Source: Puniceicoccales bacterium
GTDB taxonomy: Bacteria > Verrucomicrobiota > Verrucomicrobiia > Opitutales > LL51
Direction: 5' to 3'
DNA length: 15,361 bases
Assembly (NCBI GenBank): GCA_031268545.1
Contig: JAIRXD010000032.1
Coordinates: forward strand, 1-15,361
Each line of letters opens with the position of its first letter. Positions within the stretch are counted from its first letter, which is position 1. Shown here in pieces: positions 1,847 through 14,942 of this stretch. The position numbers were made by a program, and so were the translations under genes. The notes under the pieces are model-generated. The model did no database searches. It had not been told where the DNA came from and saw only the letters and a list, made by a program, of their open reading frames with translations.

Positions 1847-4800
1847 ATGATTGTTATAGATAGATTATGTGAAGATTTGGCCATGAAACATTCTGTGGCA
1901 ATGCCAAGCGACAGTAAGCCGAATTTCGATTGGGCTTCGGTGGTGCAAAATGATGTATATATTGATCGGTCAATTGCCGAGGAAGTGGCTAGGCAGGTAG
2001 GCAGTGCGATAACCGATTTGATGCTTGCTACCAGCAATGACGAAATTTTTTCCGAAAAAAATAAATCCATAGTGATCGACATAGTACGTCAGGTATGTGA
2101 TGAAATTTCTGATGATCAAGAGGTTAATATTCATGACATCATTTCGGATGTGTTGGTGCGAAATTCTTTACACGACATTGCCAGGTGTTTTTTAATGAAA
2201 TTAGCCTATGGTAACGATAACGGTTTAGGTGTTGATCAAAGCCTTATCAATGTGAAACTTATAAGAAGAAACGGCAAAATTGTTCCCTGGAATAAGGACA
2301 AGGTGGAACAAGCTGTCCGCAGGGCATTTTTGTCTCAATGTTTAGATCCAGTTTCATCAAAGCTTATAGCCGAAAATGTGACCGAACGGGTAATTTCTTC
2401 CGGTGCGAAATTCATTCATATAGAACAGGTTCAGGATTTGGTCCAGGAGGAATTGATGAAAACCGGTAATTTTAAAATTGCCGAGGCTTATATTTTATAC
2501 CGGGCGGAGAGAGCTCGGTTGCGCAATGATATCAATAGAGAAGTCATGACCACTTCTGGCCAGGAGGGGTTGCAGCGGGCGATGATTCTCGTGAAAATGA
2601 CCGATGGATCGGTTTCATTTTGGGATGGTAGTGATCTAAGGGAAAGGATCAGTTTTGCCAGAATTGGTCTGGATTTTGCGATCGGTTTTGAGGAAATAAT
2701 GACAGCACTCCGTGATAATATACCTGGAGAGTTGTCTGAATCTGAGTTGGAAAGCCATATTTTGGCAAATGCCTGCAAATTGGTGAGGAAGGATCCGAAT
2801 TTTTCCGTATTTGCTTCGAGGTTATCCCTATCCTATTTGTATCAGCATATCCTGGGATGGAACCCTCTGGATAAAGATATTGATGGACTGCGCAGACTGC
2901 ATCGAAATTATTTTATTAAATATATCCGAAGGGCCGTTGACCTTGGCCTACTGGATGGCGATATGCTGAGGTATGATCTACCTAGGCTGGCGGATTGCCT
3001 TTCGATTAGTGCCGATCTGGATTTTGACATAGTTGCAACTATGTCCTTGATGGACAACTACCTTCTTCGGGATCCAAACACCGGACTGCTGCTTGAAACT
3101 CCCCAGATATTTTGGATGCGGGTTGCCATGGGTATTTTCCTAAAGGAGGAGATTAGCTGGGATGACATTGCCATGTCGCTGTATAACCTGTTCAAGGACA
3201 GGGTGTTCTGTGTTTCTGAGCAGGCACTGTACTTCGCTGGTACCAGGAATTCGCAGCTGATGTCTGACTATATATATTCGGTCAATGATGATATTGAAAG
3301 CATTTTAAATAAATGTGTTATCGAAAGTGCGCTTATTTCAAGGCTTGGTGGGAATCTAGGCGGATCCTGGACGGCGATAAGAGGCAAGGGCGGGCAAATT
3401 AAAGGTACCCGTGGGGTCACCAATGGAATTATTCCTTTTATGCAACTGCATAAGCATCAACTTGCTATCATGACCAGTGGTGCCGGTGCGATGGTAGGAT
3501 CTGGTTGTGTGAGCTGCGAAATTTGGCACTCGGACATACTAGATTTTATTGGTTTTGGAAAAGAAAAATCCCCGTCTTCGAATGGCGGTAGGTTGAGCAC
3601 TTCGGTGTTGATTCCGGATCTATTTATGCGGAGAGTGAAGGATCAAAAGTCCTGGACATTGCTCAAAATTGATGATGCCAAGGTACTTATTAAATCCTAT
3701 GGTTTGGAATTTGAGACCGAATACGAAAAATTGGAATGTTTGGCAAAGGAGAATAAAATTTGGAGTAAGACTATAAATGCCAATGAGTTATGGTTTGTAT
3801 TGCTCAGGAATGTATTTGAAACCGGAAATCCGATGATATTGTTTAAAGATCAGTGCAATAATTCTGCTATGGGGGCGATTGATGGCTGCATTAATAGCGC
3901 TGGTCCGGGCCATTCGGTACTTTTGTCGGCCGGTGACGATGAATCCATAGCCTGCGGTTACGGATCGATAGTGATATCTAGATACATAGATGATGACGGC
4001 AATATAAATTTTGTCAAACTTCATGAAGATGTGGCCACATGCATCCGGGCGATGGATTCTATGATAGATGTGAATTATTTTCCCACAGAAACTTCGGTGG
4101 CCAGAACCAGGTTTTATCGGCCTATAGGCTTGGGCATGACTGGGTTACAGAACGCGTTATATAAATTAAATTACGAATTTGATTCCGATGAAGCCATAGA
4201 ATTTGCATCCATGTGTGCACGGAAAATACTACTTTTCGCTCTGGAGGCGTCCTGCCAACTGGCCCTGGAGAAGGGGAAATTTGCTGGGTTTCGGAATTCC
4301 CGTTGGGGAAGCCGTAGGCTGCCCTTCGATCTGGATAAAGGTGCTGGTTTTTTGAGTAAATTTGATGCCGAAGATATGGAAGTGATTGATGCCATCAAAA
4401 TGTCGATAACTCGTTCTGGCCTAAGAAATTGTTCTCTGTTGGCCTATTCGACCGACGAACGTATATCGAAATTGATGGGATGTTTCCCGGGAGTCTATCC
4501 GGTGACGCGAAACATATTCAAAAAATCCTATGGTGGCAGCGATGTGATTATGTTTGTTAACCCAGCCATGGTGAAGACGTTAAAGCAAGAAAACATTTGG
4601 ACCGATGACGTCTTTGAGCAGATATGTTATTTTGATGGTGAGATTGCCGCCATAGATGAAATTCCGAATGATATCAAGGCGAAATTTAGGACGGCTTACT
4701 CCATTGATACGGAGAAATTGATAAAAATGTACAGAAATCTTCAGTGCTGGATAGATCAGGGTCTGGCAGTCAGATTGTACCTAAGCTGCAGTGACATAGA

Positions 4801-4963
4801 AGAAATTTCCACCATGTACATCCGTTGTTGGGAGAGTGGAATAAAATCCATTTACGAATTGAAGCCAAGTGCACCTCCGGCGGCCAATTTACACTGCCGA
4901 CCCAGTAGAAGTTTGGCAACTGAGTCGATGGGTACGTTAAAAAACTATCCATCCACCATATAA
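1847..4963 (+). CDS. nrdA-like: Ribonucleotide reductase large-subunit (NrdA) homologue lacking catalytic residues; apparent pseudoenzyme
   Basis: The 1038 residues match the long chlamydial/PVC form of class I NrdA. The N-terminus has a degenerate ATP cone (about 30-125), a good cone (136-226, containing RRNGKIVPW) and a third cone-like domain (246-335). The ten-stranded barrel domain follows, with family landmarks such as FETGNPMILFKD, IKGTRGVTNGIIPF and IPDLFMRRV. The gapless match to the motif SSNLCTEI (E. coli N437, C439, E441) has Gly686, Gly688 and Ser690. The C225 position is Asp474, and the Tyr731 position is Glu1004; the C462 and Tyr730 positions are retained (Cys703, Tyr1003). The phosphate-binding PTATIS is STDERIS (868-874). 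The tail has one Cys (1017) instead of the redox pair. The frame is intact, so the protein is probably made and selected, but it should not reduce ribonucleotides. No nrdB is in the window. The start is uncertain: ATG 1847 has no clear Shine-Dalgarno sequence and ATG 1883 is an alternative. Confidence 0.9.
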   Translation: MIVIDRLCEDLAMKHSVAMPSDSKPNFDWASVVQNDVYIDRSIAEEVARQVGSAITDLMLATSNDEIFSEKNKSIVIDIVRQVCDEISDDQEVNIHDIISDVLVRNSLHDIARCFLMKLAYGNDNGLGVDQSLINVKLIRRNGKIVPWNKDKVEQAVRRAFLSQCLDPVSSKLIAENVTERVISSGAKFIHIEQVQDLVQEELMKTGNFKIAEAYILYRAERARLRNDINREVMTTSGQEGLQRAMILVKMTDGSVSFWDGSDLRERISFARIGLDFAIGFEEIMTALRDNIPGELSESELESHILANACKLVRKDPNFSVFASRLSLSYLYQHILGWNPLDKDIDGLRRLHRNYFIKYIRRAVDLGLLDGDMLRYDLPRLADCLSISADLDFDIVATMSLMDNYLLRDPNTGLLLETPQIFWMRVAMGIFLKEEISWDDIAMSLYNLFKDRVFCVSEQALYFAGTRNSQLMSDYIYSVNDDIESILNKCVIESALISRLGGNLGGSWTAIRGKGGQIKGTRGVTNGIIPFMQLHKHQLAIMTSGAGAMVGSGCVSCEIWHSDILDFIGFGKEKSPSSNGGRLSTSVLIPDLFMRRVKDQKSWTLLKIDDAKVLIKSYGLEFETEYEKLECLAKENKIWSKTINANELWFVLLRNVFETGNPMILFKDQCNNSAMGAIDGCINSAGPGHSVLLSAGDDESIACGYGSIVISRYIDDDGNINFVKLHEDVATCIRAMDSMIDVNYFPTETSVARTRFYRPIGLGMTGLQNALYKLNYEFDSDEAIEFASMCARKILLFALEASCQLALEKGKFAGFRNSRWGSRRLPFDLDKGAGFLSKFDAEDMEVIDAIKMSITRSGLRNCSLLAYSTDERISKLMGCFPGVYPVTRNIFKKSYGGSDVIMFVNPAMVKTLKQENIWTDDVFEQICYFDGEIAAIDEIPNDIKAKFRTAYSIDTEKLIKMYRNLQCWIDQGLAVRLYLSCSDIEEISTMYIRCWESGIKSIYELKPSAPPAANLHCRPSRSLATESMGTLKNYPSTI

Positions 4964-5234: not shown

Positions 5235-6689
5235 ATGCAAGAAGATGATAATAGTGAATTGCTAGCGGTTCGGCGGAACAAATTGGCAGAGATGCGCAGT
5301 GAGGGTTTTGATCCTTTTAGGCAGAATTGGGATCAGCAATATACATCGGCCCAGGCTAAAAAATTGTTCAGCGATAATGATGACATTGAGGTTTCTGTGG
5401 CCGGAAGAATTGTGGCCTATAGACTTATGGGTAAGGCAAGTTTTATTAAATTGCTAGATCGAGATGGCCATATTCAGCTGTATATTTCCCAGGATGACAT
5501 CGGAGAAGATGAATATAGAAATTTTAAAAAATTAGATATCGGCGATATTATTGGCGCAAAAGGCAAGCTGTTTAAGACCAAAACCGGTGAGATAACCGTA
5601 CGAGTCGATGGGTTTAGGCTTCTGGCAAAATCGATGCGGCCGCTGCCAGAAAAATGGCATGGACTTACCGATGATGAACAAATTTACAGACAAAGGTATC
5701 TGGATTTAATCGTAAATCAAGAGTCGAGAGCCAGGGCTTTCAAAAGGACGGAAATTTTGAAAGAGATTCGCAAGTTTTTGTGGAGTAGGGAGTTCACGGA
5801 AGTTGAAACTCCAATGCTGCAAAATATACCCGGTGGGGCCGCGGCAAAACCGTTTATGACTCATATGAATGTCCTCGATCATGATTTTTATCTAAGAATA
5901 TCATTAGAGTTGTTTTTAAAGCGGATGTTGGTTGCAGGTTTCGATCGGGTTTTCGAGCTGGGCCGAGTATTTAGAAACGAAGGTCTTTCCAGGAAACACA
6001 ACCCAGAATTTACGATGATAGAACTTTACCAGGCCTATTCAGATCATCGGGGGATGATGGATCTTATCTATGACCTGATTCAGCATCTGTGTAAAACCGT
6101 CCTTGGCAAGACGAAGCTGACCCGTTACGATGGAAAAGAGATCGAATTGTCGGGGAAGTGGAGAGAGGAAACCTATGGTAATCTCGTTATCGAAGCCACC
6201 AAAGATGGGCATTGGTTTTCCCGAACAAAGGAAGAGAAGCTTAAGGCCTGCAAGGAGTTAGGCGTCGAAGCAAATCCAGACCAGGAGGATTATGAAATCA
6301 CCGATGATGTTTTTGGCAAGTTGGTGGAGCCGAATCTGATACAGCCCACTTTTGTTTTGGAGTTGCCGAAGGAATTGTGCCCATTGGCCAAATTAAATCA
6401 GAAAAATCCGAAGCTCTTGGATGTGTTTGAGTTATGTATCAATGGCCAGGAGATTGCTCCGTCTTACTCCGAGCAGAACGATCCGTTTATCCAGAGGGAA
6501 ATGTTCGAGGCTCAGGTGGGCGAGGAGATACAAAACCTTGATAATGAATTCCTTTTGGCCCTTGAGTATGGCATGCCTCCGGCCGGTGGCATGGGTATCG
6601 GTATAGATAGGTTGGTGATTTTACTTGCCGAAGCAGATAATATCAGAGATACGATTTTATATCCCACGCTTAAGCCGTTGACAGATTGA
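5235..6689 (+). CDS. lysS: Lysyl-tRNA synthetase, class II
   Basis: It charges tRNA-Lys with lysine using ATP in the cytoplasm. The 484 residues have the usual bacterial length and order. An OB-fold anticodon-binding domain covers about residues 50-130 (VAGRIVAYRLMGKASF). The class II catalytic core follows: motif 1 near 180-195 (REFTEVETPML), the GGAAAKPF substrate loop at 200-207, motif 2 at 245-262 (VFRNEGLSRKHNPEFT), the NGQEIAPSYSEQNDP segment, and motif 3 near 450-465 (GGMGIGIDRLVILL). All expected catalytic landmarks are present. The start is set by a perfect Shine-Dalgarno sequence. miaB begins 3 bp after the TGA stop, so the two are almost certainly co-transcribed. A 271-bp gap separates it from the reductase-like gene upstream, so lysS probably has its own promoter, which I could not locate with confidence. 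Confidence 0.97.
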   Translation: MQEDDNSELLAVRRNKLAEMRSEGFDPFRQNWDQQYTSAQAKKLFSDNDDIEVSVAGRIVAYRLMGKASFIKLLDRDGHIQLYISQDDIGEDEYRNFKKLDIGDIIGAKGKLFKTKTGEITVRVDGFRLLAKSMRPLPEKWHGLTDDEQIYRQRYLDLIVNQESRARAFKRTEILKEIRKFLWSREFTEVETPMLQNIPGGAAAKPFMTHMNVLDHDFYLRISLELFLKRMLVAGFDRVFELGRVFRNEGLSRKHNPEFTMIELYQAYSDHRGMMDLIYDLIQHLCKTVLGKTKLTRYDGKEIELSGKWREETYGNLVIEATKDGHWFSRTKEEKLKACKELGVEANPDQEDYEITDDVFGKLVEPNLIQPTFVLELPKELCPLAKLNQKNPKLLDVFELCINGQEIAPSYSEQNDPFIQREMFEAQVGEEIQNLDNEFLLALEYGMPPAGGMGIGIDRLVILLAEADNIRDTILYPTLKPLTD

Positions 6690-6692
6690 TAG

Positions 6693-8012
6693 ATGAGAAG
6701 AGTTTTTATCAAGACCTATGGCTGTCAGATGAATGAACGAGATTCGGAATCGATTCACTCATTCCTCCAGGCCAGTGGTTTTGATATGGTCGATAACGAA
6801 ACATCGGCGGATGTTATCATCTTGAATACCTGTAGTGTTAGAGAACTTGCTGAGCTGAAAGCTTTAGGCAAATTGGGCTATCTTGCTCGGCGAAATATTG
6901 TTCTGTGTGTGCTTGGCTGCATGGCTAAGAATCTAGCCGAAGAAATAAAAAAACGCGTACCTGGCGTGGATATAATTCTTGGCCCAGGCGATTATAGTAA
7001 AATTGGCGACTATATAGAAGATATAATTTCTGGAAGAAGAACTTTTATAATTGATGTCGATTCTCCTGGGGCAGAAAATAACTTGGATATGGATTCGATG
7101 CACAATGTAACTCAAAGGCAATCAAGTGCTTTCGTTTCGATAATGTCCGGATGCAATATGCGATGTAGCTATTGTATTGTCCCTAAAACTAGAGGCACTG
7201 AAAGATATAGGGCAATGGAAGATATCATACTGGAGATCAACAAATTAGCGGACAATGGCATCAAGGAAGTGACGCTGCTTGGTCAAATAGTTAATCGCTA
7301 TGGGTTTCGCCAGATAGAGCAAAAGGATGGCAAGAGTGCCTTTGTTCAACTATTGGAAAAAATTCATGAAGTTCCTGGTATTAAACGAATTAGATTCACC
7401 TCTCCCCATCCGGTTGGATTTCATCGCGACCTCATCGATTGTTACAAAAATCTTCCAAAGTTGTGTTCTCAGGTGCATTTGCCTGCGCAGAGCGGATCGA
7501 ATAGGATATTGAAGGCGATGCGAAGGGCATATAATCGGGATGATTTTATAAAAATTGTTCAAGCTCTGCGAGATACGGTGCCAAGTATATCGGTTTCCAC
7601 CGATTTGATCGTTGGATTTCCTGGCGAAAATGATGATGATTTTTCGGAAACATGTTCGCTTTTCGATGAGGCCAGATTTGACATGGCATTCATATTTAAA
7701 TATAGCGATCGCAGGGGGACTGTAGCTGCTTCAATGCCGGATCAGGTGCCACGGGATGTGAAAGAATATCGGAATGCTGTGCTGCTTAAAAAATTGGCAA
7801 CGCACTCTAAGGCCTATAACGACAAGATGTTAAACACATTACAGATGGTTCTTGTGGAAGGAAAGGCACGGCGTGGAGAAAATATTTTTCAGGGACGAGC
7901 TAATAATCATCGAAAGGTACTATTCCCTGGCGATGATTTGGATGTCGGTGAGTTTGTGGATGTTAGGATAACATCATCCGCAGTTACCACATTATATGGC
8001 GAGAAAATTTAA
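6693..8012 (+). CDS. miaB: tRNA-2-methylthio-N6-dimethylallyladenosine synthase MiaB
   Basis: This radical-SAM methylthiotransferase adds a methylthio group to C2 of i6A37 in tRNAs reading UNN codons. The 439 residues show the three-domain plan. The N-terminal MTTase domain has cluster ligands Cys11, Cys47 and Cys76 in KTYGCQMNERDSE, NTCSVRE and VLGCMAK. The radical SAM CxxxCxxC is at Cys154, Cys158 and Cys161. A C-terminal TRAM RNA-binding domain covers about 378-435. KTYGCQMN and NTCSVRE favour MiaB over RimO or MtaB. The usual GQNVNSY motif reads GQIVNRY here, a mild variation. The start is 3 bp after the lysS stop with no clear ribosome site of its own, suggesting translational coupling. 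A hairpin followed by five T residues lies just past the TAA. Confidence 0.95.
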   Translation: MRRVFIKTYGCQMNERDSESIHSFLQASGFDMVDNETSADVIILNTCSVRELAELKALGKLGYLARRNIVLCVLGCMAKNLAEEIKKRVPGVDIILGPGDYSKIGDYIEDIISGRRTFIIDVDSPGAENNLDMDSMHNVTQRQSSAFVSIMSGCNMRCSYCIVPKTRGTERYRAMEDIILEINKLADNGIKEVTLLGQIVNRYGFRQIEQKDGKSAFVQLLEKIHEVPGIKRIRFTSPHPVGFHRDLIDCYKNLPKLCSQVHLPAQSGSNRILKAMRRAYNRDDFIKIVQALRDTVPSISVSTDLIVGFPGENDDDFSETCSLFDEARFDMAFIFKYSDRRGTVAASMPDQVPRDVKEYRNAVLLKKLATHSKAYNDKMLNTLQMVLVEGKARRGENIFQGRANNHRKVLFPGDDLDVGEFVDVRITSSAVTTLYGEKI

Positions 8013-8018
8013 TCCTAG

Positions 8019-8046
8019 CCGTAGCACTTGGAAGCTATCGGTTTTT
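8019..8046 (+). terminator. Intrinsic terminator of the lysS-miaB operon
   Basis: Arms CCGTAGC (8019-8025) and GCTATCGG (8034-8041, one bulged T) enclose an 8-base loop and are followed by TTTTT (8042-8046). It starts 7 bases after the miaB stop. The right arm contains the stop codon of the convergent O-antigen gene on the other strand (8037-8035). The stem is short, so confidence is moderate. Confidence 0.55.
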
Positions 8047-9249
8047 ATAATTTAGTGCCATAAATAGTACAATTGAAAAAAATAGCATTCCTATTGAATC
8101 CCAAGTCCCTCCAATACAATCACCTAGTTTGAATATTATCAATGATGTGGCAAGTGCTGTGGCCATTTTATGGCGAGAAAAAATTAATTTTACGGCGCAC
8201 ATTATTGGAAATATCCAGAAAAATAAAAATCCAGGAATTCCACATTTATACATAAATCCCAAGGCGGTTGCATGGGGCATGGTGCAAAATGATTCAGAAA
8301 ATTCGAAGTTGTTGTGGTTGTAGTTTCTAGCTCCCAACCCTCGGCCGCATATCAGTTCAATATTTGCATCTTTTAGCACGTTCATAATTTCAAAAAATCT
8401 ATTTTCTTCATCTAATTTTGTACTGGCGATGCGGTCTTTCAGAGGCTAAAACAGGTCTAGATCTGCGAGATAAAGTGAAGAAAATATTCCGATGGCCGAT
8501 ACAGATGCTATTACCAGATAAAGATTTGTTTTATTTATGCTCGAAATTATGGCCCACAATGTGCAGATCATGTATATGAGTAGACTTCCTCGGCTGCCTG
8601 TCAATGCTATGATGATCAAAATCAGCAGCCATGATCCCAGGAGTGGAGTCGTACTGCATTGGGATAAGCGTTTGTAGCACAATACGATAGGGAATAATCT
8701 TATGGAATAATCTATGGCAGTTATGATTGACATATTTATCAATCTTTGATGTTTATCTGCGGTGTAAAGTGACCAGATGGTTGCTAGGATTGCCAGCAGA
8801 AAAAGATAGTGGAAACAGATGGTTAACGTCTTTGCAATCACTATGTTGCCTTTTGTTGCGCATAGCATCGTTCCGATCAAAAATCCCGAGAGGGCTATGA
8901 GATCGGACAGCAGGCTGTACCAAGAAAAGAATGGCCTATGGAAATTTATCAGACCTAGGATGATGCCGTATAACATCAGTCCAAGGCATAGGTAATACGT
9001 TAAGCCACAATTACATGGCGATCTAATGTATTCAAAAAAAACCGAAATCGCGAAAATTCCGTAGATCAAAATTCTCCATGGATGCGAATCTTGATATAAA
9101 TTTCCATGGACCAATAGGCAGTAGGCTAGAGCATATAGAACCAGCAGCTTGCCGCTGGTTCCACATTTGACCTTGGCTTGCCGATGAGCTTTCAATCGGT
9201 CAATTTTGCTGTTGCACAAAGTCCTCGAACCCAGGCCCTTCGGTGTCAA
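8035..9249 (-). pseudogene. O-antigen ligase/polymerase-like membrane protein, interrupted by one in-frame TAG
   Basis: Two open segments on the minus strand, 9249-8449 and 8445-8038, lie in the same frame and are separated by a single TAG at 8448-8446. Joined, they give about 404 codons, the usual size of WaaL/Wzy-family glycan ligases or polymerases. The upstream part has about seven to eight hydrophobic spans and the family-typical TGSRGSLLIY. The downstream part resembles the Wzy_C region: a DRIAS...DEENRFFEI stretch, then GRGLGARNY, a His-rich periplasmic loop and two more spans. Members join or polymerise O-antigen or related glycans at the periplasmic face. The start is unclear: TTG at 9249 would overlap rpoD by 50 bp, and TTG at 9195 starts 4 bases after the rpoD stop. 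No other lesion is visible, so the nonsense mutation is recent, a sequencing error, or read through. Confidence 0.75.
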
Positions 9250-10894
9250 AATCTCCTTCGAAAAATCCGTGCAATTGGCGTATCCTCGTTGGATGGCGCA
9301 TCTTTCTCAGTGCCTTGGCTTCGATCTGGCGAATCCTTTCCCTGGTAACACTAAATGTTTGGCCGACTTCTTCCAGTGTTCTGCTGTAGCCGTCCTTGAG
9401 ACCAAATCGCAGCATCAAAACATCGCGTTCCCTTTCGGTCAAGCTGACCAACACGTCATCTATCTTCTCCCGCAGCAAACTGTAGGCGGTCATGTCATAG
9501 GGATTATCCGCGCTCTTATCCTCGATAAAATCTCCAAAACTGGAATCTTCGTTGTCGCCCACCGGACTCTGGAGCGAAATTGGTTGCTGGGCCATCTTCA
9601 TTATCGCCTTTACCCTCTCCAGAGGTAAGCTCATTTCGCTGGCAACTTCTTCGGCGGATGGTTCATGGCCAAGTTCTTGTTGCAATTGACGTTGGATTTG
9701 CATGACCCGATTAAGTACCTCTATCATATGCACTGGAATTCGGATGGTTCTAGCCTGATCGGCAATGGATCGAGTGATCGCCTGCCTTATCCACCAGGTG
9801 GCGTAGGTGGAGAACTTGTAGCCGCGGCGGTATTCAAATTTCTCAACGGCTTTCATCAGTCCCATATTTCCTTCTTGGATAAGGTCTAGGAATGTCAGGC
9901 CACGGTTGGTATATTTTTTTGCTATACTGATGACCAACCTCAAGTTCGCCTCGACCATTTCGGTTTTAGCCTTATGGGCCTCGCGCATGTATTCTCGAAA
10001 TTTTTTTACTATTTCCAGGAGCCTGAGCGGAGTCACTTGATGCTTCAGCTCTAGCTTTTTCATAGCTTTTTTTATTCGATTGGACATTTCGGTGGTATCA
10101 ATGTTTTTTTTGGCAGAGAGAGATGCAACTCGTTCTGATTCATGGGCTAGCTGTTCTATTTGTTTTAGATCTGGCCTTAATCTTTGGAGAAAATCTTCGA
10201 AAATCTTCATTTTAAAACAGAACCGTTTCATGACGGTTTTTAGTTGGGCCTGAAATTGTTTTAGCCGTTTCTGTTCGATCTCTCGATTTCCTTCGGCTGA
10301 TTGTAAGTGGTTCCAGATGTCATAGATACGCTCCAACAAGAGCTTGCTGTCCTGGATGGAACGCTCGAGGATTCTGTAATACACCTCCCGACTTTCGATT
10401 TTTTTATCTAGTACAATTCGGTCAAATCTCTCTTCTCGTTGTAGAAGTCGTTCGGCCAGATTGATTTGAAACTCGGCGGTTAGGTGAACCGAGAATAGTT
10501 CATCCTGGGCCTGAAGTTCGGCCTTTTCTATCCTTTTGGAGATGGATATTTCCTCATCTCTGGTCAGGAGCGGAACCTGGCCCATTTGCCTAAGATACAT
10601 TCGGACAGGATCTTCTGCTACATCCTCCATCGGAGCATCTTCGAAATTGCCGGCCTCTCGCTGTTTTACATACCTTTCGACATCATTGGTATCAACTATC
10701 TCTATTTCCAGGTTATCGAGAATATTCATCATATTCTCCACATCCTCTGGATTTTCTATACTTTCCGGCAGGTATTCGCTGATATCCTGGAGGGTTAAAT
10801 ATCCCTGTTCTTTGGCGAAACGGATCAGTTCGCGTACACGAACATCTGTGCCATTCACCGCATTTGCATCCGACGATGATTTATTAGTTGTCAT
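9200..10894 (-). CDS. rpoD: RNA polymerase primary sigma factor, sigma-70 family
   Basis: It directs core RNA polymerase to housekeeping promoters. The 564 residues carry the full primary-sigma plan. A region 1.1-like N-terminus (about 15-75) leads to region 1.2 (94-125, [21 protein letters not shown]). A charged non-conserved insert follows (about 130-300). Region 2 (311-390) has [27 protein letters not shown] and the -10 recognition and melting part [15 protein letters not shown]. Region 3 covers 391-460, and region 4 (485-540) has the -35 helix-turn-helix [25 protein letters not shown] short acidic tail of about 20 residues follows region 4. It starts 25 bp after the dnaG stop, and the O-antigen gene follows directly, consistent with one operon. 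The dnaG-rpoD pairing is a widespread macromolecular-synthesis arrangement. Confidence 0.97.
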
Positions 10895-12770: not shown

Positions 12771-14942
12771 TTAGCCCAACAATTCGGCGTGGGTCTTATA
12801 CATCAAAGGTGTCTTGATTGGAATTATAATTTTTTCATCACTGTTTTGTTCTTTTTTTTCATTAAATATTTGGACATTCAAAGCCGCCTCAAATTGAGGA
12901 AGAGGTATCTGTTTAGTATCCGGTTTTATCTTCTTTTTTTTGTCAGTTTTTAATTCTTTACCTGGTTTTAATTTTTTTAATTTCTTTGCGGTATTAGTTT
13001 TGGCTTTTTTTGCCTTTTTTTTGATTTCGTTCAAAATTATAGCAGATTTAATGGTATTGACTATCTCTATAATAGTTTTGCGATCCAATATGCAGGATAT
13101 CATAATTTCTCTATCTTTTGTCGTCGTCCTAAATTCCAATGGGCTCATTAGATTATAATTTGGAGCGATGATTAAGTCATCGATATAGCCAATAATATTT
13201 TCCATTATACTTCTTATATCTATTTTTGTGGTGGTGACATCTCCTGGATTTAGCGTGCCAATATATGCCGTCAAAGCCTTTTGGGAAATCTTTTTGCCTT
13301 TGATTGCCGTTATTAACTCTTTTATATGATCTTTAGTATTGCTCGTTATGGCAACTCCATCGACCAGTGCGATATATTCTTTATAAATTTTTGATGAGTT
13401 ACTGCCTTGGGCGGCAACGTTATAAATTTCTGATAATTTACTGCCTTGGTCAACAACGCTATTGCTATTGCCACCGGATATTTCTCCATTAATTTGGGAA
13501 AGTGCTTTGGTAGCATCAACTTTTACCGGTTGGCTTGAACTTGTGATTATGTATTCGTAAATAGTTACACCGTCGTGTATATCTATTGTAGAAGATAATT
13601 CGATCATTTCAGTGGAAAATGGTTCGACCACTCCATTATTTTGGGAGAATGATGCAAGCCGTTTGGAGATCTGCTGAGCACCTCTACATATATAATCATA
13701 TACCGCAAGTAAATCGGCCATGGATCCAGTCCATGAAAAACAGAATGTATCTATAATACTTTTCGATTTTTGTCTGGATATTACTGAATCAATGGCTGTA
13801 TCTTCATTTGTTTCATTGTATAGGATTTTAATGCTTTCATTGAGCAAATTGTAGGGATTAATTATTTCACAATAGGTTCCATCGGTGTTAGATTTTACAA
13901 TATTTATGATTTTTGATAACTGGTTGGTATCCTTAAAGAAATCGAATAGGTCACAGGTTCCCAACGATTTCAATAAATCCAGTAGCATATCAAGGTAGGC
14001 CTCTGCATTAATTTTAGAGATTTGTGATATGGCCTCATGCTCTATAAAATTGGCCCAATTTGAAATATTGCCGCCGGAATTTTTACTATCGCAAAGTTTT
14101 GCCATTGGTGTCCCTTGATTGAATGCGGCAGAAGCTGCCAAAGTGACACTCGTATCTGTTATGCCAAAGAGTAGACTTATTGTGTCGAAACCGTCGGTAT
14201 ATTTCAATGCAATATTTTGTAGCGCAGTAACCAATTGCGTACATGATTGGATCTTATCAGCCTTCATTAAGTCCGTAACTTTAAAAGATATACTGAGCAT
14301 GTTATTGAGTAGATAGTTAATGTAATAATCGACACTTTTAAATGTTAACTCCAGGTCATTTTTTTCGGTGGCTGTGGCTATTTTTATGAAAGGTGTTATG
14401 TCGTTTACCTGGCTAATGATATTTTCCAATGGGGTGAAAATTAGCCATTTATCCACTATTTTTATCTTTAATTCATTGGTCTTAATGAAATCCTTAATGC
14501 TAGATATGTCATTATTTAATTTTGCCATTATCACTATTTCTTTACTTTCGCCGCAGAAAAAGCATGTAAGTCCATAATTACTATCAAAGGCCTTGAAATC
14601 AGGATAGCCATAGATTCGTAAAAAACTGCTCACTATGGGCTCGACCAACTTTGCGCTATCGAAGGAATTTATCAACTTTATGGTCTTGGCAACAAAAGAC
14701 TTAATATCTGCCAATTTCGCATAGCCAATGATATCTTCGTTGGTAAAATTTTTGGGCTTTTCCAATGCCATACTGTCCTGGGTAGTAATGGGGCCGCCGG
14801 CGTTTGGCGTGCCCAATTGACTTTCATTGGTGGACTGCACAACGCTTTGGCTATCAAAAATTTCCACGGGAACATTAGCCTGTAGCGGATTAATTCCTAG
14901 ATGCGCCATGACAAGTAAAACTAAAGAATATATATAATTCAT
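12771..14942 (-). CDS. Large secreted or periplasmic protein of unknown function (723 aa)
   Basis: The ATG at 14942 opens a Sec signal peptide (hydrophobic core at residues 5-20, probable cleavage after LQA near 22). The mature protein is mostly alternating short strands and helices. Segments such as IVIMAKLNNDISSIKDFIKTN followed by KIKIVDKWLIFTPLENI resemble the repeated beta-alpha modules of large periplasmic proteins seen in Verrucomicrobia and Planctomycetes. This is a likeness, not an identified domain. Residues 640-678 form a lysine-rich linker (19 Lys in 39), followed by a Pro-containing tail with no membrane anchor. A 13-residue tandem duplication lies in the second half. The stop is 15 bp from dnaG, so co-transcription is likely. 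An envelope protein leading a primase-sigma operon is unusual. No Shine-Dalgarno sequence precedes the start. Function is unknown. Confidence 0.8.
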   Translation of the reverse strand: MNYIYSLVLLVMAHLGINPLQANVPVEIFDSQSVVQSTNESQLGTPNAGGPITTQDSMALEKPKNFTNEDIIGYAKLADIKSFVAKTIKLINSFDSAKLVEPIVSSFLRIYGYPDFKAFDSNYGLTCFFCGESKEIVIMAKLNNDISSIKDFIKTNELKIKIVDKWLIFTPLENIISQVNDITPFIKIATATEKNDLELTFKSVDYYINYLLNNMLSISFKVTDLMKADKIQSCTQLVTALQNIALKYTDGFDTISLLFGITDTSVTLAASAAFNQGTPMAKLCDSKNSGGNISNWANFIEHEAISQISKINAEAYLDMLLDLLKSLGTCDLFDFFKDTNQLSKIINIVKSNTDGTYCEIINPYNLLNESIKILYNETNEDTAIDSVISRQKSKSIIDTFCFSWTGSMADLLAVYDYICRGAQQISKRLASFSQNNGVVEPFSTEMIELSSTIDIHDGVTIYEYIITSSSQPVKVDATKALSQINGEISGGNSNSVVDQGSKLSEIYNVAAQGSNSSKIYKEYIALVDGVAITSNTKDHIKELITAIKGKKISQKALTAYIGTLNPGDVTTTKIDIRSIMENIIGYIDDLIIAPNYNLMSPLEFRTTTKDREIMISCILDRKTIIEIVNTIKSAIILNEIKKKAKKAKTNTAKKLKKLKPGKELKTDKKKKIKPDTKQIPLPQFEAALNVQIFNEKKEQNSDEKIIIPIKTPLMYKTHAELLG
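13381..13458 (-). repeat. 39-bp tandem duplication within the secreted-protein gene
   Basis: Two adjacent 39-bp copies, 13381-13419 and 13420-13458, both begin TTATAAATTT on the plus strand. They share the central block TTACTGCCTTGG and differ at only a few positions. Each encodes 13 residues of the minus-strand protein around the motif QGSxxSxIY. This is a simple in-frame coding duplication. Confidence 0.85.

Follow-up and report, generated by a model that had tools for sequence, protein, structure and literature searches.

The window, by which we mean the whole 15,361-nt stretch of DNA analysed here, is one entire contig of a draft genome (G000; 89 contigs that total 665,079 bases; 84% complete) from a probably host-dwelling organism with a reduced genome. 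It harbors a gene for a protein related to NrdA, the alpha subunit of class I ribonucleotide reductase (RNR), whose features are collected in Table 1. The frame had originally been described as uninterrupted, and its 1038 codons indeed contain neither a stop nor a frameshift. Its product possesses the domain order of class I RNR alpha subunits—ATP-cone, all-alpha domain, barrel. Another genome (G001, locus L156), the congener of G000 in genus g1 of family f1, has the same gene order dnaG-rpoD-ligase-miaB-lysS-nrdA, which makes a chimera unlikely. As to the host or habitat of the organism, the 'Nucleococcus cluster' of protist endosymbionts, as presented in an excerpt of PMC8204192, offers a lead only.

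Table 1 Features of the nrdA-like gene and its conserved neighbors in the window.
Feature	Positions	Strand	Basis
Orphan NrdA-like protein, putative pseudoenzyme, 1038 aa	1847..4963	+	ORF; Pfam ATP-cone, Ribonuc_red_lgN, Ribonuc_red_lgC
ATP-cone, residues 138-223, best-kept part of the protein	2258..2515	+	Pfam; constraint count
All-alpha domain, residues 392-468	3020..3250	+	Pfam
10-stranded barrel domain, residues 473-1003	3263..4855	+	Pfam
Asp474, at the position of E. coli C225 (lost)	3266..3268	+	
Asp481, corresponding to E. coli D232 (kept)	3287..3289	+	
Arg512, corresponding to E. coli R262 (kept)	3380..3382	+	
G-P-G-H-S at the N-L-C-x-E finger loop; N437, C439 and E441 lost	3902..3916	+	
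Cys703, corresponding to E. coli C462 (kept)	3953..3955	+	
STDERIS (868-874) at the substrate phosphate loop PTATIS (lost)	4448..4468	+	
Tyr1003-Glu1004 at Y730-Y731; Y731 lost	4853..4858	+	
lysS; neighbor and orientation as in congener G001	5235..6689	+	
miaB; neighbor and orientation as in congener G001	6693..8012	+	

Further genes of the window, all on the minus strand, were inspected by eye. At 8044-9306 lies an O-antigen-ligase-like membrane gene without a Pfam or NCBIfam match; one in-frame stop splits it into two ORFs, so that it looks broken, and its G001 counterpart (L156:4462-5751; 69% identity) is a single 430-aa frame. The stretch 3-857 encodes a probable secreted coiled-coil protein with an 81-bp (27-aa) tandem repeat in 4.6 copies, distantly related to two adjacent G001 genes (38% identity). 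A 723-aa protein with a signal-like start is encoded at 12771-14942; it, too, lacks a Pfam or NCBIfam match, and its second half is 43% identical to the G001 gene at the same place. Searches of the window returned no Rfam match and no match to an NrdR-box pattern.

To assess the catalytic residues, we aligned the window protein with E. coli NrdA (L162:4866-7151) in a set of 205 NrdA rows, composed of best matches, relatives and the E. coli protein rather than a random sample, with a few genes entered twice. At E. coli positions 225/437/439/441/462/730/731 the window protein reads D/G/G/S/C/Y/E, as compared to C/N/C/E/C/Y/Y in 184 of the 205 rows; the 21 deviants all belong to the orphan group described below. 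The alignment bore out the substitutions named in the original prediction, namely G686, G688 and S690 for the triad N437/C439/E441, D474 for C225, and STDERIS for PTATIS. The gap-free match from Ile682 to Ser707 likewise held against intact relatives, with the anchors D668, C670, N671, G680, C703 and G706 invariant in 14/14 rows, but the location given for it (3881-3952) was wrong: residues 682-707 occupy window positions 3890-3967. A displaced triad was also sought, and no N-x-C-x-E motif exists anywhere in the protein. Beyond what had been predicted, C462 and Y730 are kept, Y731 is replaced by glutamate, and the C-terminal cysteine pair is missing. Both the redox pair C225/C462 (D474 and C703 in the window) and the radical path Y730/Y731 (Y1003 and E1004) are hence broken. 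Judged by its sequence, the window protein is almost certainly dead as a catalyst.

An AlphaFold2 model of the protein (pLDDT 76.9, pTM 0.74) was weak at, among others, residues 479-504, 513-551 and 682-696, so that the finger loop and the specificity-site loop fall into low-confidence zones. Foldseek returned Pseudomonas aeruginosa NrdA with dATP (5im3)—also the best solved relative by sequence—as top match, and human R1 (3hnc) with a target TM-score of 0.88. By these matches, the overall fold is kept.

In neither G000 nor G001 was a second NrdA or any other PF02867 match found (one NrdA-like match each), and NrdB returned 0 matches in both; the reductase of the congener is of class III. Across 273 genomes of the order, NrdA was detected in 192 (E ≤ 1e-40) and NrdB in 175. 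Comparing the two lists placed both genes in 168 genomes and NrdA alone in 24. Two of the latter, G069 and G215, were dropped as orphan bearers, their NrdA pieces being intact fragments at contig ends. The remaining NrdB-less genomes carry an altered NrdA without exception (22/22). All are drafts, of 0.67-1.3 Mb, and they stem from families f1 (2; G000 and G001), f7 (11), f13 (1), f26 (3) and f28 (5). The selection of orphans relied on the absence of NrdB. Of the 168 two-gene genomes, 36 had their residues inspected, together with 3 database proteins; all 39 intact rows read C/N/C/E/C/Y/Y. Four genomes of genus g36 in family f20 (G050, G065, G160, G213) possess NrdB and matched the window NrdA weakly (E about 1e-47 to 1e-41). 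In the sister genus g2, none of 12 drafts (64-93% complete) yielded an NrdA.

Adding the database protein P0003, which is of the same type as the window protein, to the 22 genomes gave 23 orphan rows. C225 and Y731 are kept in none of them, N437 in 4, Y730 in 8, C439 in 12 (f7 and P0003), E441 in 17 (f7, f26 and three f28) and C462 in 18. None of the 23 rows has a cysteine at either of the aligned columns of the C-terminal pair, and two database proteins of the f7 type (P0008, P0011) have two cysteines somewhere within their last 30 residues. These counts imply that the losses came in stages, with f7 least altered: all 11 f7 proteins keep C439, E441 and C462 (four of them also N437), P0003 keeps C439 alone of the triad, f26 keeps E441 and C462, and the window protein, G001 and f13 have lost the triad altogether. 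Going by these residues, the f7 proteins might retain chemistry. This staged loss common to five families, like the sparing of the ATP-cone, goes beyond the original prediction.

In a tree of 67 rows, from which G109 was left out as its gene is split over two contigs, the 22 orphans used formed one clade with an SH-aLRT of 100, obtained with a quick method and subject to a long-branch warning. When families were added one at a time, f1, f26, f28 and f13 took no firm place among intact NrdAs. Orphans share the replacements G397 to A (23/23), M583 to L (23/23), N522 to R (22/23), A501 to G (21/23) and D537 to H (20/23). Together, the joint tree and the shared replacements support a single origin of the orphans.

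To determine which parts of the protein have been spared, we selected the columns whose identity among the 39 intact rows reaches 97% or more (439 in total) and scored the cells kept in the 23 orphan rows, with five intact outgroup rows as control. Constraint is inverted in the orphans. In the ATP-cone (29 columns) they keep 519/621 cells (0.84) versus 75/145 (0.52) in the outgroups, whereas the stretch with the triad and C462 retains 345/758 (0.46) versus 151/165 (0.92), and the phosphate-loop stretch 292/782 (0.37) versus 145/170 (0.85). The other orphan and outgroup values were 0.55 and 0.54 for the third cone plus all-alpha domain, 0.69 and 0.89 for residues 601-670, 0.58 and 0.86 for residues 716-850, and 0.53 and 0.82 for the barrel end with Y730/Y731. 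Counted by column, 15/29 cone positions are majority-kept in all five families, compared with 82/400 others (Fisher p 0.0004). The least constrained large part, in the comparison of the window with G001, is the N-terminal 135 residues (identity 0.65).

Taken in its entirety, the region of the specificity site and loop 2 shows no such sparing: 1286/2223 cells (0.58) are kept in orphans versus 378/485 (0.78) in outgroups. Of the residues that we take to form the specificity site of E. coli NrdA, D232 and R262 are kept in 23/23 orphan rows and in all 13 f28-type database proteins (P0121-P0133, partly overlapping the orphan rows); R298 is kept in f7 and 4/5 f28 members and lost in f1, f13 and f26. 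Within the cone, R140 and R141 are kept in 21/21, and Y215 and R219 in 22/22, of the orphan rows with sequence there. By motif spacing rather than alignment, these four match Lys7, Arg8, Tyr83 and Arg87 of PcNrdD. The consulted part of PMC11226230 describes Lys7, Arg8, Arg87 and Arg91 as adjoining the phosphates of two dATPs, with Tyr83 stacking on the base of one and a hairpin roofing the other. The orphan cone has the residue set of an ATP-cone nucleotide sensor, with two basic residues in its hairpin and a Tyr/Arg pair at its C-terminal side.

We further surveyed the orphan genomes for other components of dNTP supply. A class III NrdD was found in 19/22 (not in G019, G084 and G166); it is complete in G001 and reduced in G000 to a 3' fragment at a contig end. 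All 17 orphan-genome NrdDs that we aligned contain the MCCR motif, the cysteine at E. coli position 175 and the glycyl-radical glycine; one of the four zinc positions is histidine in most. NrdG2 passed the cut-off in 19/22 genomes (not in G000, G055 and G172; the last gave no match at all). Searches of G019, which is 93% complete, found no NrdB, no NrdD and no other reductase. The hairpin of the NrdD cone was missing in 8/10 NrdDs scanned, which match the ATP-cone profile only from position 16 onwards at the earliest, or not at all; the whole cone is present in G016, a larger genome, and in G025 (f13). Among orphan-genome NrdDs with the N-terminus covered, 15/16 lack the hairpin. The exception is again G025, where an orphan coexists with an NrdD whose cone is intact. 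The NrdD cone of G117 lies just over the Pfam cut-off (27.0 versus 25.8 bits), and that of G087 keeps a KRDC stretch, the rest of its hairpin being gone.

Genus g2, which has no NrdA, shows that NrdD can do without the orphan, since the one NrdD examined from its 12 genomes also lacks the hairpin. We therefore rejected the notion that the orphan universally supplies a cone in trans. With respect to gene neighborhoods, genus g8 has nrdD as the immediate upstream neighbor of the orphan, in the same orientation, in all three genomes whose contigs cover the region (G087, G164, G193), with 0.1-0.2 kb between the open frames; the contig of the fourth, G019, is cut there. In G117 and G180, nrdG2 and the orphan share a strand and are about 2.5 kb apart, separated by two genes. 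The orphans of G155 and G129 have other neighbors (G129 has an NrdD piece about 9 kb away, on the opposite strand), and the contigs of G097 and G147 end too early to reveal the neighborhood. In the window's genus, nrdD and the nrdA-like gene sit on different contigs among other neighbors, and neither nrdD nor nrdG2 is near the orphan in G001. These cases of adjacency are few and represent related events. By eye, a superoxide-dismutase-like gene follows the nrdA-like gene at two g8 loci (L209:7759-8505, L210:2471-2851). In genus g51, a secretion-chaperone-like gene (L218:5042-5563) lies between nrdG2 and the nrdA-like gene; it matches SicP weakly, at 21.4 bits with a cut-off of 99.

NrdR (E ≤ 0.001) was detected in 19/22 orphan genomes (not in G000, G001 and G164), in 6/7 g2 genomes and in 10/10 relatives with larger genomes; several orphan-genome NrdRs, including all five of f28, score under the curated cut-off. 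Given its presence in 19/22, replacement of NrdR by the orphan is only suggestive, and we set this idea aside. ATP/ADP translocases of the Tlc family, which point to intracellular life, occur in 20/22 orphan genomes (not in G087 and G164), implying that orphan bearers are probably intracellular.

How has such a gene persisted? Between the window and its G001 counterpart (81% identity), dN/dS was 0.095 by the Nei-Gojobori method at a high dS of 1.21, on par with dnaG (0.091) and miaB (0.103) from the same two contigs; lysS and rpoD gave 0.036 and 0.021. Five f7 orphan pairs ranged from 0.055 to 0.071 (dS 0.31-1.09), and six intact NrdA pairs with usable dS from 0.040 to 0.093. Altogether 18 pairs were tried; three were saturated and returned no value, and dS exceeded 2 in the orphan pairs G164-G193 and G046-G131. 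No internal stop was found in the NrdA matches of the 22 orphan genomes. The rates are not neutral in either the window or the f7 comparisons, which supports the original proposal of a selected pseudoenzyme; at the sequence level, absent catalytic residues, absent R2 and purifying selection together mark the protein as an R1 pseudoenzyme. Alternatively, the gene could have become dispensable recently and be decaying slowly, its low dN/dS reflecting the time before the losses, as the absence of the gene from g2 and the higher ratios in one looser pair each of f26 (0.19) and f28 (0.14, at dS 2.4) might suggest. We consider this very improbable: all five families have lost C225, Y731 and the C-terminal pair and yet their frames are open, the orphans have conserved replacements in common (such as those of N522 and D537), and even close f7 copies (dS 0.31-0.49) gave 0.063-0.071, indicating that selection acted after the losses. 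An assembly or binning artefact, for which the fragmented draft state of the source genome might speak, has a practically negligible chance of being right; it is contradicted by G001 with the same gene, losses and gene order, and P0003 has nearly the same losses.

What the protein is selected for can be read in several ways. Conserved nucleotide residues in the cone, combined with destroyed catalytic ones, make a nucleotide-sensing role the best reading, and we lean—at slightly better than even confidence—towards a class I NrdA that lost NrdB and its chemistry in host-restricted lineages and was kept as a nucleotide-sensing protein. It is rather unlikely that the pseudoenzyme instead serves a purpose unrelated to nucleotides, such as a scaffold or a host-directed factor, with the cone needed for folding or oligomerization only. 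The probably intracellular life indicated by Tlc would suit such a role, as would the betaherpesvirus inactive R1 homologues, which act on host signaling according to the portions of PMC11772975 and PMC5469499 consulted; however, R140, R141, Y215 and R219, and not just the cone core, are invariant wherever covered, and the N-terminal region that might form a host-directed extension is the least constrained. Quite improbable, too, is an enzyme with a rebuilt active site, employing another cysteine, such as C681, or an f7-type N/G-x-C-x-E with a radical from an unknown partner. The residues retained by the 11 f7 proteins and P0003, and the failure to find another reductase in G019, leave some room for it, but the window and G001 lack the entire triad and have an altered phosphate loop, the loss of C225, Y731 and the C-terminal pair extends to all rows, and the NrdD of G001 has its catalytic residues.

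For the nucleotide-sensing reading, we envisage the following course. The chemistry would have been lost by stages, most simply in one common ancestor. The orphan may still bind ATP or dATP at its cone and dNTPs at the specificity site, as its residues would allow, and its oligomeric state would shift with the dATP/ATP ratio. It might then pass the nucleotide signal on to NrdD or NrdG, the least certain step. NrdD, whose own ATP-cone appears to lack the hairpin that roofs the nucleotide, would be the most economical target, although not one that depends on the orphan, considering the 12 g2 drafts without it. In its most far-reaching form—possible but doubtful—this amounts to a new dNTP regulator, in which a dead class I alpha subunit confers ATP/dATP control in trans on a class III reductase with a gutted cone, and which would have a single origin, in an ancestor common to five families of probably symbiotic Opitutales/Puniceicoccales relatives.

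Work on RNR alpha subunits treats them as enzymes that contain their own sensors. If the above holds true, the orphans would constitute a natural experiment that separates the enzyme from its sensors and reveals the worth of the ATP-cone alone, and the graded series from f7 via P0003 and f26 to the window, G001 and f13 could serve to test the conversion of a metabolic enzyme into a regulator. A further caution is that the database label 'ribonucleoside-diphosphate reductase subunit alpha', as borne by P0002 and P0003, need not mean aerobic dNTP synthesis.

Among the open-licence literature matches listed, screened by titles and the beginnings of abstracts, no inactive bacterial NrdA was reported. 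Of the 2022 class I alpha sequences covered by PMC9669993, 1914 have NLCXE according to the section consulted; that section does not discuss dead ones, and the words 'inactive' and 'pseudoenzyme' are absent from the main text of the paper. NCBIfam NF005401 ('ribonucleotide reductase-like protein') is likewise a bacterial RNR-like family, but the window protein was rejected as a member (86.4 bits versus a cut-off of 906; model of 604 aa). Against NF009029, presumably the chlamydial NrdA family, it scored 535.8 bits at a cut-off of 1350. NrdR is an ATP-cone transcription factor that senses ATP/dATP and controls dNTP supply; it has a zinc finger, in which the orphan differs from it. NrdD with an ATP-cone resembles the orphan in using the cone as an ATP/dATP sensor of dNTP supply, as far as the excerpt of PMC11226230 goes, and differs in being a glycyl-radical enzyme. 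The betaherpesvirus R1 proteins (HCMV UL45, HHV-6B U28, MCMV M45) are, like the orphan, inactive conserved R1s without a genomic R2, as stated in the consulted part of PMC11772975; unlike it, they are viral and host-directed. Closest in build are the long class I NrdAs with ATP-cones typified by the P. aeruginosa enzyme (5im3), which share the domain order, cone motif and barrel of the orphan; by comparison, the window protein has dispensed with the catalytic cysteine, its N/E companions, C225, Y731, the phosphate loop, the C-terminal pair and a genomic NrdB.
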